Shown piece by piece: positions 25,601 to 35,867 of a stretch of 64,000 bases of DNA. How positions within the stretch are numbered: position 1 is the stretch's first letter; every line of letters starts with the position of its first letter. The notes under the pieces were generated by a model. That model was given only the letters and a program-made list of their open reading frames with translations, did no database searches and had not been told where the DNA came from. Source of the stretch: Rarobacter faecitabidus (lineage in GTDB: Bacteria; Actinomycetota; Actinomycetes; Actinomycetales; Cellulomonadaceae); NCBI RefSeq assembly GCF_006716265.1, contig NZ_VFOS01000003.1, positions 124,001-188,000 on the forward strand. Reading direction: 5' to 3'. The position numbers and the translations under genes were made by a program.

Positions 25601-25640
25601 GAAACCCCGCGTAGCTTCTACATCGCGGGGTTTCTTCATT
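25601..25640 (+). terminator. Terminator of the tRNA cluster
   Basis: The perfect 11-bp stem GAAACCCCGCG/CGCGGGGTTTC with a 12-nt loop is followed by TTCATTTC. It starts 2 nt after tRNA-Phe. Confidence 0.9.
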
Positions 25641-33052: not shown

Positions 33053-33457
33053 TCAGCCTAGGCCAGCGATCGGTAGTGGCAGAAAGACTTCGAGATCGGC
33101 CCTGGCCCCAGAGGCCGAGATCGTGCCCTCGGCGAGACAGTCCGCCCACGACAGCCGGCCCGATACGAGGCCAAGCCAGATGGCGGGTGCCATCTCCACG
33201 ACGTTGGGCGGTGTCCCGCGGGTATGACGCGGGCCGTCGATACACTGGACGGCCCCGCAGGGCGGGACGCGTACCTCGACGCTACGACCCGGGGAGTCCT
33301 CGGCAAGGAACTGGAGGCTGTAACGGACGGCGGTGGCAATGGTGGCGGAGGCCTCGTCCCCGCTCGCCCAACTACGTAGCGCCGCCAAGCCGAACGATGG
33401 CTCTATCTTGCGCGGTGGCACAAAACCCCCATATTCGTTGTCCGAGCCGGTTGTCAT
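33053..33457 (-). CDS. Sterol-carrier (SCP2-like) family protein
   Basis: This protein of about 134 residues contains RSVEVRVPPCGAVQCIDGPRHTRGTPPNVVE, split here as VEVRVPPCGAVQC and HTRGTPPNVVE, a signature of a small actinobacterial SCP2-like family found next to purF. The name implies a hydrophobic cavity for lipid binding; the true ligand is unknown. The ATG at 33457 is chosen. An ATG 33 nt upstream is possible but adds residues outside the family. It is the first gene of the unit leading to purF-purM. Confidence 0.72.
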   Translation of the reverse strand: MTTGSDNEYGGFVPPRKIEPSFGLAALRSWASGDEASATIATAVRYSLQFLAEDSPGRSVEVRVPPCGAVQCIDGPRHTRGTPPNVVEMAPAIWLGLVSGRLSWADCLAEGTISASGARADLEVFLPLPIAGLG

Positions 33458-33552
33458 CTCACATGTCGAGAGACTTTGGCCGCGTCTCACCTGCCGTTTT
33501 GCACGTATCGCGCCGAAAACCGAGGTTGCGTCTCAAAATTCGATACAAAGCC

Positions 33553-33582
33553 TGGACATTCCTTTGCGAACATCAGTATTCT
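33553..33582 (+). promoter_or_regulatory. Promoter giving a leaderless transcript
   Basis: TGGACA, an 18-nt spacer and TATTCT (33577-33582) end 7 nt before the ATG at 33590. Transcription would therefore start at or next to the ATG, giving a leaderless mRNA. Confidence 0.55.
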
Positions 33583-33589
33583 ACTTGTC

Positions 33590-33736
33590 ATGGTCAACGC
33601 CCTGAACGGATTCGATGCGCACTACGCATCCCCCTTTAGCGTTACCTCCTCCCGAATGCCGCGAATGTGTACGCCCGCTGACAACTGTTGTTGTCCGGCG
33701 CCGGTCTTTCGCGTAGACGCAGCTGCCAGCCTCTAA
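33590..33736 (+). CDS. Cysteine-rich regulatory leader peptide (48 codons)
   Basis: This short frame has no SD but starts 7 nt after a -10 element. It encodes 48 residues with a cluster MCTPADNCCCPAPV; the three consecutive TGT codons are at 33686-33694. The TAA lies 27 nt before a terminator-like hairpin, which precedes a sulfurtransferase gene. This is the layout of the leaderless polycysteine upstream frames that act as cysteine-responsive attenuators in mycobacteria: when charged tRNA-Cys is scarce the ribosome stalls on the Cys codons and the terminator is not formed. The role here is inferred from layout; the peptide itself probably has no function. Initiation at an internal ATG (33656 or 33665) is possible. 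Confidence 0.6.
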   Translation: MVNALNGFDAHYASPFSVTSSRMPRMCTPADNCCCPAPVFRVDAAASL

Positions 33737-33763
33737 GTAGCGCTCGCCCCTGCACCGCATTTC

Positions 33764-33808
33764 AAGACCTGCGCCCAGTCGTGCCTCGCGACGCAGGTCT
33801 TTCTCTTT
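33764..33808 (+). terminator. Attenuator-type terminator before the sulfurtransferase gene
   Basis: The stem AAGACCTGCG (33764-33773) with CGCAGGTCTT (33792-33801) is followed by a T-rich stretch TCTCTTT. It lies between the cysteine leader and the sulfurtransferase, so it can only serve as an attenuator of that gene or as the end of the short leader RNA. Confidence 0.65.
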
Positions 33809-33929
33809 GCCTGCCGCGTGAGACGTGACAGCGGGCCCCACCTGGCACACCCTCCCCGCAGCGTGCACCGCAGCCTATTCGATCTGGCGCGGCACCTGCC
33901 CCCAGCGTCATTCGAAGGAATCCCCCATC

Positions 33930-34778
33930 ATGTCTGTCCTCATCTCACCTGCTGAACTCAAATCCCTCCTCGCCGGCGACAACGCACCTCGCATCCTCGA
34001 CGTCCGCTGGCGTCCCATCGCCCCGAACGGCCAGCCCGACTACGTCTCCGGCCACCTGCCCGGCGCCGTATACGTGGACCTCGAGACGGAACTCGCATTC
34101 CGCGGTGCCCGCAGCGAAGGACGTCACCCGTTGCCGCCCATCGACCTGCTGCAGTCCGCCGTGCGTCGCTGGGGCATCAGCGACGACGACCTGGTCGTTG
34201 TGTACGACGACCACAAGTCCATCGCCGCCTCCCGCGCCTGGTGGGTACTGCGGCACGCCGGCCTGACGAACGTTCGCATCCTGGACGGCGCGCTGAGCGG
34301 GTGGCGTGCTGCGGGTGGCAAGCTCGAGGCCGGCACGCCCCTGGTTCGGCCGGGCACCGCGACCCTGTCGTATGGCGCGCTGCCTGTCGCGGACATCGCC
34401 GACATCGAGGGCTTCGCCATCAGCCGCGCACTCCTGGACGCCCGCGCAACCGAGCACTTCCACGGGCTACCGGACATCGGCGAGCCCAAAGGCGGTCACA
34501 TCCCCGGCGCGCTGAGCGTCCCCACTCAGTTCAACATCGACGAGGACGGCTCCTTCAAGAGCCGCAAGCAGCTCTCCGCCCGGTTCCAGGCACTCGGCCT
34601 CGACCCCCACGTTCCGGTCGCCGTGTACTGCACGTCGGGCATCGCGGCCGCGCACACCGTCGTCGCGCTCGAGATCGCGGGCTTCCGCTCGGCGCTGTTC
34701 GCGGGATCGTGGTCGCAGTGGGTCAACACGCCCGTTCCCACAGGTCAGGCGGGGGCGGGGCTGCTCGGCGTCGCCTGA
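33930..34778 (+). CDS. sseA: Thiosulfate/3-mercaptopyruvate sulfurtransferase
   Basis: This 282-residue two-domain rhodanese begins MSVLISPAELKSLL. The N-terminal domain (about 10-125) is structural (ILDVRWRP, HLPGAVYVDLE). The C-terminal domain (about 160-275) carries the catalytic loop with Cys234 in YCTSGIAAAH. It moves sulfane sulfur from mercaptopyruvate or thiosulfate to acceptors such as thiols or cyanide. The CTSGIA loop is closer to mercaptopyruvate enzymes than to the classical CRxGxT loop. GAAGGA is 12 nt before the ATG. The cysteine leader upstream suggests expression follows cysteine supply. Confidence 0.92.
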   Translation: MSVLISPAELKSLLAGDNAPRILDVRWRPIAPNGQPDYVSGHLPGAVYVDLETELAFRGARSEGRHPLPPIDLLQSAVRRWGISDDDLVVVYDDHKSIAASRAWWVLRHAGLTNVRILDGALSGWRAAGGKLEAGTPLVRPGTATLSYGALPVADIADIEGFAISRALLDARATEHFHGLPDIGEPKGGHIPGALSVPTQFNIDEDGSFKSRKQLSARFQALGLDPHVPVAVYCTSGIAAAHTVVALEIAGFRSALFAGSWSQWVNTPVPTGQAGAGLLGVA

Positions 34779-34821: not shown

Positions 34822-34862
34822 AGATTGTCGTAGGGCCACCGACAGTGGTCCTACGACAATCT
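34822..34862. terminator. Long inverted repeat between sulfurtransferase and ABC exporter genes
   Basis: An 18-bp stem (34822-34839 with 34845-34862, one G-T pair) has a 5-nt loop. It ends the sulfurtransferase transcript and lies 18 nt before the ABC gene, so it might also act on that gene's expression. Confidence 0.75.
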
Positions 34863-34880
34863 CACAGCGGAGAACTCGTC

Positions 34881-35867
34881 ATGGCAGACCCCAGCGGACC
34901 AGCGGTCGTAACCACGTCGCTTCGAAAGACGTACCGCACCTTCAGCGGCCGCAAGGTCGTCGCGGTCGAGAACCTCGATCTGACCGTCCCCCGCGGTGGC
35001 GTGCACGGATTCCTGGGACCCAACGGCTCCGGAAAGACGACCACCATCCGCATGATGCTGGGGCTCACCCGACCCGACTCCGGCACCGTCGAACTGCTCG
35101 GGCAGCCGATCCCCCGCGCGCTCCCCGCCGTCGTCCAGCGCGTGGGAGCCATCGTCGAGCAGCCCAAGTTCTATCCCTACTTCACTGGGCGCGAGAACCT
35201 CATCCAGCTCGCGCTGGCGATCGGGGTTCCGCGCCGGCGCGTCGACCAGGTGCTCGAACAGGTCGATCTGACCGGGCGCGCGCGGCACCGCTACCGAACG
35301 TATTCCCTCGGCATGAAACAGCGGCTCGCCATCGCGGCAACGCTGCTCAAGGATCCCGAGCTGCTGATCTTCGATGAGCCGACCAACGGCCTCGACCCCG
35401 CCGGCATTCGAGAGGTGCGGGGCACAATGCGTGAGCTTGCCGGTCAGGGCAAGACCGTGCTGGTATCCAGTCACATCCTCGCCGAGGTGGAGCAGGTCGC
35501 CGACACGGTTTCGATCATCGGGCGCGGGACGGTCATCGCGCAGGGTCGTGTGGACGAGTTGCTCGCCGCCCGAGGTGGCGCGTCCATTCGCGTGGGCCTG
35601 AAGATGTCGGAACTCGCCTCTGGACTCATCACGCTGCAAACCTCCGGCTTCGCCACGCGCGTCGAGGGTGCGCACATCGTCGTGTCGGGCGAGGCCGATC
35701 CGAGCGAGGTCAACCGCACGCTCGCACGTTCTGGCATCTTCGCCTCGGAACTGACCCCGCAGGGCGGCGGCCTCGAGGATCTCTTCCTAGAACTGACAGC
35801 GGGCGAGGTGACCGGCGGGAACGTCGATCCCGCGCCTCGCCCCGCCGGGGGAGGTGAGGCACGATGA
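34881..35867 (+). CDS. ABC-2 type exporter ATP-binding protein
   Basis: This 328-residue ATPase has Walker A GPNGSGKTTT, a Q-loop region, signature YSLGMKQRLAIA, and Walker B LLIFDEPTNGLDPAG with the switch His in SSHILAE. A C-terminal domain of about 90 residues (EVNRTLARSGIFASELTP) is typical of DrrA/BcrA-like exporters. It energises the permease encoded next, whose ATG overlaps this stop by four bases. The substrate (drug, lipid or peptide) is unknown. The ATG at 34881 follows GCGGAG. Confidence 0.9.
   Translation: MADPSGPAVVTTSLRKTYRTFSGRKVVAVENLDLTVPRGGVHGFLGPNGSGKTTTIRMMLGLTRPDSGTVELLGQPIPRALPAVVQRVGAIVEQPKFYPYFTGRENLIQLALAIGVPRRRVDQVLEQVDLTGRARHRYRTYSLGMKQRLAIAATLLKDPELLIFDEPTNGLDPAGIREVRGTMRELAGQGKTVLVSSHILAEVEQVADTVSIIGRGTVIAQGRVDELLAARGGASIRVGLKMSELASGLITLQTSGFATRVEGAHIVVSGEADPSEVNRTLARSGIFASELTPQGGGLEDLFLELTAGEVTGGNVDPAPRPAGGGEAR

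Follow-up and report, generated by a model that had tools for sequence, protein, structure and literature searches.

A candidate leaderless cysteine attenuator upstream of a sulfurtransferase gene in an actinobacterial genome

The stretch of DNA analysed here (the window; 64 kb, G000:C3:124001-188000) comes from a genome of 2.8 Mb and carries, on the plus strand at 33930-34778 (ATG at 33930), a gene for a two-domain, rhodanese-type sulfurtransferase of 282 aa with the active-site loop CTSG. Two rhodanese stretches were recognized within the protein; its top NCBIfam match was 3-mercaptopyruvate sulfurtransferase (E 9.5e-39; 133 bits, below the curated cut-off of 250), and its nearest relative of solved structure was the 3-mercaptopyruvate sulfurtransferase SseA of E. 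coli (1urh, E 5e-33), which has CGSG in place of CTSG. A Shine-Dalgarno sequence, GAAGGA, was read directly at 33914-33919, and its accessibility was modelled (see below). On the minus strand, a gene for an SCP_3-domain protein (33053-33490) is the upstream neighbour of the leader considered here, and an ABC transporter ATPase gene (ATG at 34881) follows the sulfurtransferase gene. Between these last two lies a strong palindrome (34825-34863), either a gene-end hairpin or an operator; the Micrococcales bacterium KH10, which at this locus is the closest relative that has a name (L038, a stretch also numbered L004 of G003), carries a palindrome at the corresponding intergenic position, though unrelated in sequence. 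The window genome contains another sulfurtransferase homologue (L002), 35% identical, whose loop CRIGERSSHTW we take to be CysA2-type; the scanned stretch upstream of that gene held no leaderless Cys-Cys frame.

The leader of the sulfurtransferase gene opens with a promoter, TGGACA-18-TATTCT (33553-33582, plus strand; -35 at 33553-33558, -10 at 33577-33582), which ends 7 nt before an ATG at 33590, as an earlier note on this DNA had described. It is the sole sigma-70-type consensus site in 33300-34100, where shuffled sequences gave a mean of 0.2. The ATG starts a 48-codon frame of leaderless type on the plus strand, MVNALNGFDAHYASPFSVTSSRMPRMCTPADNCCCPAPVFRVDAAASL, whose stop ends at 33736; other open frames, such as that at 33476-33736 from a TTG, begin upstream of the promoter and were dropped. 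The first Cys codon (33668-33670) closes a core, CGAATGNCNCGAATGTGY (33653-33670), of the form R-M-x-R-M-C, and three tandem TGT codons at 33686, 33689 and 33692 (33686-33694), the candidate sensing codons, sit 13 codons from the stop, with a small hairpin, GACAAC/GTTGTC, over the Cys codons (33680-33695). The frame and its Cys-Cys-Cys run are thus present as claimed; the four Cys codons, said to be clustered, are really one plus three, 15 nt apart.

We counted leaderless-type short frames, defined as TANNNT followed after 6-8 nt by an ATG or GTG that opens 8-89 aa, and found 11 on both strands of the window; of these, none but the leader contains CC, CCC or four or more Cys. Over 200 dinucleotide shuffles of the window, the mean number of such frames was 0.025 with CCC, 0.565 with CC and 0.955 with at least four Cys, so that the run of three is unusual and four Cys alone are ordinary. 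Taken by itself, TGYTGYTGY occurs eight times in the window, compared with 2.41 expected. All four leader Cys codons are TGT, as against 2/25 in six window genes (Fisher p 6e-4), and TGT makes up 5/5 Cys codons in the KH10 leader and 4/6 in that of G001, two leaders with no usable background. This all-TGT usage would suit a stalling site; base composition might also account for it. The Arg codon CGA, uncommon in the same six genes (15/174 Arg codons), occurs twice in the core.

Four genomes make up the genus sample: the window genome (G000), G001, the metagenome-assembled genome (MAG) G002, which is 81% complete, and KH10 (G003). Sulfurtransferase orthologues were found in all of them, together with five leaders, of which the MAG has two and the other genomes one apiece; a third and more distant MAG copy (L009) has no leaderless-type frame. 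In each of the five leaders, TGGACA is invariant, a TANNNT hexamer lies 6 or 7 nt before the ATG, and the frame has 36-49 codons. The Cys-rich core R-M-x-R-M-C-x3-D-x-C-C and an M(A/V)NA start are common to three, namely those of the window, G001 (MANARTQSGTRSVSLSFVRVSPCCRMSRMCMPMDDCCRPCPAA) and KH10 (MANAAHVVEFTSTPSARVFSMSRMSRMCMSMDTCCCPTMAMSRCLTAAN); the MAG leaders have three and two Cys, with the core nearly lost. A search of the four genomes with the motif CGNATGNNNNGNATGTGY returned the three leaders and two further matches, at G002 C274 and G003 C6, that we judged to be chance. A profile built on the three leaders (R1) likewise gave one match each in G000, G001 and G003 and missed the MAG leaders because these are too divergent. 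In 200 family genomes, searched under stricter filters with at most 15 candidates scored per genome, R1 found nothing credible beyond its three source leaders; another 15 genomes gave weak matches (E 0.003-0.098), which, from the three forward frames around each, we read as parts of longer open frames and not as leaders.

The earlier note proposed a search for the same frame upstream of orthologous genes; such frames were found within the genus but not at the loci examined in other genera. Among 150 family genomes, 111 gave a sulfurtransferase match, and 107 of these belong to other genera. None of the 26 loci examined out of the 107 had a frame of leaderless type, 8-80 aa long, no more than 700 nt from the start of the match, one 10-residue frame with two Cys at the Microbacterium locus L040 having been judged a chance occurrence.

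Conservation of the core extends to the nucleotide level in three genomes and appears to exceed what Cys sensing alone needs. Together with the M(A/V)NA start, it means that RMxRMC-x3-DxCC is kept beyond the Cys codons, as might be expected if the frame encoded a small functional Cys-rich protein (e.g. metal- or thiol-binding) and the hairpin that follows were its own gene-end terminator. We consider this highly improbable, given that the length and C-terminus of the peptide vary, that the core decays in the MAG leaders, and that it is conserved in nucleotides too. Furthermore, none of the five peptides matched an NCBIfam family at E ≤ 10, and the consensus scan finds no separate promoter for the sulfurtransferase past the hairpin. 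A search of 33500-33960 against Rfam at E ≤ 10 also returned no family.

That hairpin, on the plus strand at 33764-33801, begins 27 nt past the leader stop and pairs 10/10 between its arms (33764-33773 and 33792-33801), followed by the T-rich tail TCTCTTTG (33802-33809; TCTCTTT), in agreement with the earlier description; 128 nt of leader then separate it from the sulfurtransferase ATG. Its stability was equalled by none of 500 shuffles, compared with 3/500 for the KH10 hairpin and 12/500 for that of G001. Only three hairpins of comparable strength with a T-rich tail exist in the 64 kb, both strands included (mean of 0.07 in 30 shuffles); of the other two, one, a clear intrinsic terminator at 25601-25634, lies right after tRNA-Phe and one inside an ABC permease frame. 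A standard terminator scan did not list the leader hairpin because its loop limit is 8. Across the genus, an intrinsic terminator stands between frame and gene in three of the five leaders, with a good T-rich tail in two, and neither MAG leader has a T-tailed hairpin. The phylum of the window organism is reported to have few predicted intrinsic terminators.

The earlier note called the attenuator layout complete, which the parts that it listed did not justify because no antiterminator was named among them. A candidate is nevertheless present: GGCGCCGGTCTT (33697-33708, plus strand), which starts 2 nt past the Cys run, is complementary at 11/12 positions to AAGACCTGCGCC (33764-33775, plus strand), a segment that begins with the ten bases of the terminator's 5' arm. 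The predicted duplex has -20.0 kcal/mol, and 6 of 2000 dinucleotide shuffles were as good; KH10 has a different sequence in the same place (-12.0; 16/2000), these pairings having been spotted before they were tested by shuffling and resampling. In G001 the terminator is present, but an antiterminator is not distinguishable from shuffles (588/2000 as good), so that a mutually exclusive antiterminator just past the sensing codons occurs in the window and KH10 and not in G001. The control, in which the terminator's 3' arm was the partner, was unremarkable (457/500, 284/500 and 70/500 shuffles for the window, KH10 and G001). Resampling of synonymous codons after the Cys run, a harder test, reached an equal antiterminator in 113/2000 cases for the window and 41/2000 for KH10, and was uninformative for G001, where the observed value was reached in 2000/2000. 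Under this test, support for the antiterminator is moderate.

In classical trp-type attenuators, a leader peptide precedes a terminator and a competing antiterminator, and the position of the ribosome decides between them. Frame and promoter in five leaders, the Cys core in three, a terminator and a fitting antiterminator support the earlier suggestion of a cysteine attenuator, and the sulfurtransferase leader is probably a leaderless, cysteine-responsive, ribosome-mediated transcription attenuator. Transcription would start at or beside A33590, placing the first codon at the 5' end, where a ribosome would load immediately and trail the RNA polymerase. With ample Cys-tRNA, the ribosome would reach the stop at 33736 while 33764-33801 is being transcribed; the terminator would form and the gene would go unread. 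With scarce Cys-tRNA, it would halt in the Cys codons and leave 33697-33708 free to take 33764-33775 while the terminator's 3' arm has yet to be made, and the polymerase would continue into the gene. We infer the transcription start, the translation and stalling, the direction of regulation and the kinetics.

We modelled this switch with transcripts truncated ahead of the terminator's 3' arm, counting any upstream partner of the 5' arm. With the ribosome at the first Cys codon of the window leader, the predicted probability that the 5' arm is paired upstream was 0.88; a ribosome at the first tandem codon gave 0.56-0.88, depending on the assumed footprint, one at the second or third gave 0.51-0.86, and one at the stop 0.25-0.36. 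For KH10 the probability was 0.85 at each of the first four Cys codons and fell to 0.04-0.21 when the ribosome stood at the last one and to 0.02-0.21 when it had reached the stop. G001 gave 0.58-0.68 for the first four Cys codons, 0.11-0.67 for the fifth, 0.00-0.01 for the last and 0.13-0.52 for the stop. Full-length transcripts at equilibrium gave another result for the window: the terminator had a probability of 0.15-0.58 with the ribosome at the first Cys codon; with the ribosome at the first tandem codon, the four footprints gave 0.13, 0.82, 0.91 and 0.91; and the second and third tandem codons and the stop gave 0.90-0.91. Since equilibrium thus favours the terminator at most stall positions, the window switch would need kinetic trapping. 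In G001 the full-length terminator remained at 0.97-0.99 for every ribosome position, and in KH10, with the ribosome at the tandem codons, it had 0.51-0.79 if the transcript ends at the hairpin and 0.02-0.44 if it is 8 nt longer; without a ribosome, the values were 0.95 (window), 0.97 (G001) and 0.17 (KH10). The folding predictions therefore look good for KH10 with the longer transcript, fair for the window and poor for G001. Additionally, a ribosome at the stop leaves 33697-33708 uncovered, so its block of the antiterminator would have to be steric or a matter of timing. The missing antiterminator of G001, the weak MAG leaders and the required kinetic trapping are the weak points of the attenuator reading.

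Canestrari and colleagues are said to have described leaderless poly-Cys short frames in mycobacteria in 2020 (in Mol Microbiol). The available text of PMC4633059 places leaderless Cys frames of mycobacteria before cysA2 (Msmeg_5788) and nirA, and passages of PMC13236596 and PMC9031893 cite such frames as acting on translation. The likeness to these frames that the earlier note had drawn stands, as far as these passages describe them, for the leaderless-type start, the Cys cluster, the position as first frame of the transcript and the location before a rhodanese-family sulfurtransferase gene. It does not extend to the output step, cited there as translational, since here an intrinsic terminator competes with an antiterminator; nor to the gene, which is mercaptopyruvate-type (CTSG) here and not CysA2-type.

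The nearest described frames being translational, the sulfurtransferase leader could be of that kind as well, with a stalled ribosome freeing the Shine-Dalgarno sequence and the T-tailed hairpin incidental. The 128 nt of leader that lie beyond the hairpin would be in keeping with this, as would the 9/10 pairing of 33653-33662 with 33905-33914, at the edge of the Shine-Dalgarno sequence. The folding predictions speak against it, however. For the one footprint tried, the mean unpaired probability around the gene start varied with ribosome position only between 0.56 and 0.61 in the window, 0.47 and 0.61 in G001, and 0.44 and 0.60 in KH10, so that Shine-Dalgarno accessibility is predicted to shift little and the mycobacterial hallmark, stalling that exposes a sequestered ribosome-binding site, did not appear. 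The pairing of the CGAATG core with the distal leader was no better than that of shuffles (197, 432 and 136 of 1000), and translational control would leave the terminator unexplained. We therefore regard it as unlikely.

Other described leaders resemble the transcription attenuator proposed here in part. Seliverstov et al. 2005 (PMC1262725) predicted Cys leaders for cys operons of Mycobacterium and Propionibacterium acnes and for cbs of Bifidobacterium longum; these are also short Cys-run frames before sulfur genes in Actinobacteria, but in the available text they have their runs close to the stop codon and lack obvious terminators, whereas in our leader 13 codons separate the run from the stop and a terminator comes next. 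The uORFC-8-2 motif of Rhodobacterales cysS (PMC8632094), a predicted ribosome-mediated attenuation by Cys-tRNA, similarly has its Cys codons within the first stem and then an intrinsic terminator; according to the text available, it differs in belonging to Alphaproteobacteria, in standing only before cysS and in having a tandem pair at codons 14-15, and a leaderless start is not described there. Our leader is no member of that motif, its gene being a sulfurtransferase and not cysS. The ilvB1 attenuator of Mycobacterium tuberculosis, in the available part of PMC13236596, has a 166-nt leader that is not described as leaderless; it shares the leader peptide and the choice between antiterminator and terminator by ribosome position, but, like the trp-type attenuators, senses another amino acid.

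In the open literature, with subscription papers mostly outside the scope, we found no account of a leaderless poly-Cys attenuator of transcription that has both a terminator and an antiterminator, nor of one that precedes a mercaptopyruvate-type sulfurtransferase gene. We conclude that this is a real regulatory leader made of known parts in an arrangement that looks new. Judging from the accessible portions of the sources cited above, actinobacterial cysteine attenuation has so far been described as either without obvious terminators or translational; if the proposed reading is true, classical trp-type output would be shown for a leaderless frame in Actinobacteria, the leader would serve as a compact reporter of the way in which a 70S ribosome that loads on a 5'-terminal AUG keeps up with RNA polymerase, and sulfane-sulfur transfer would be tied to cysteine supply.

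Cys-rich frames also occur upstream of other sulfur genes. In the window genome, G001 and KH10, cysK is preceded by a separate, Shine-Dalgarno-led frame with Cys runs (L069 1280-1348, L070 on the reverse strand, and L071; peptides MRSIRATLSYRALPCCCCPSSR, VRTQMAGTCLTARACCRCC and VRTQPAMLCCRAVMCCCSC), which we count as support for the attenuator reading. A Cys-rich short frame lies upstream of 17 of 30 cysK genes, a set drawn from 39 searched genomes that includes the window genome and its two genus relatives, whereas 40 rounds of shuffling averaged 1.05 and never exceeded 3. Past the three genus cysK leaders, the stems with four or five T close by are all of 5 bp, and no hairpin matches that of the sulfurtransferase leader. 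No leaderless Cys-Cys frame was found upstream of PAPS-reductase-family genes (L085-L091), and none with at least three Cys at seven of eight cysS-family loci (L119-L126, with L122 left out), where a few Cys-containing frames, lacking a promoter or Shine-Dalgarno sequence, were dropped.

Upstream of the leader promoter, and 6 nt from its -35, is an imperfect palindrome, GTCTCAAAATTCGATAC (33530-33546, plus strand), aligned in three leaders and possibly bound by a sulfur-related regulator. A box resembling GTCTCACATnTCGATAC, a consensus derived from the five leaders themselves, is found with 0-3 mismatches in all five, 4-6 nt before TGGACA. With at most two mismatches, it has five sites in the four genomes, compared with none for the backward control pattern. 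Two of the five stand before leaders, in the window and in KH10; one precedes a metK-like gene of G001 and one a CysA2-type gene of G002 (both genes recognized by eye), and the remaining site is inside an open frame. Weaker boxes (2-3 mismatches) lie 240-246 nt before the start of the CysA2-type match in G000, G001 and G003, against a background of 10 sites of this quality in the 64 kb of the window. Such boxes were noted at 33530-33546 and 33456-33472 of the window and in L065, L066, L002, L007 and L008. The boxes before the leaders and before metK-like and CysA2-type sulfurtransferase genes suggest an apparent sulfur regulon with a putative regulator; the consensus box is absent before cysK of the window genome and KH10 and before the three cysS genes examined.

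The constant place of the box just before the -35 in all five leaders, and similar boxes at other sulfur genes, raise the alternative that box and regulator control the gene, and that frame and hairpin give fixed premature termination, or the hairpin tunes expression with no cysteine sensing. Such an arrangement seems very unlikely to us, because it gives no account of a leaderless-type frame in five leaders, of the Cys core in three, or of an antiterminator abutting the Cys run; moreover, both controls could coexist. A broader proposal builds on such coexistence: layered on the regulator box, the leader would sense both sulfur amino acids, Met and Cys, and favour the rare TGT, and with the cysK leader it would form a cysteine "ribulon" in Micrococcales, in which two leaders have different output steps, the sulfurtransferase leader having a strong terminator and the cysK leader no hairpin of similar strength. 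We hold this to be doubtful, if conceivable. Met stands beside Cys in the conserved core. The leader peptides contain three Met and four Cys among 48 residues in the window, five and six among 43 in G001, and eight and five among 49 in KH10. In G001, a run of 39 G (L065 1408-1446), either a true tract or an assembly artefact, ends 54 nt short of the box that lies before the metK-like gene.
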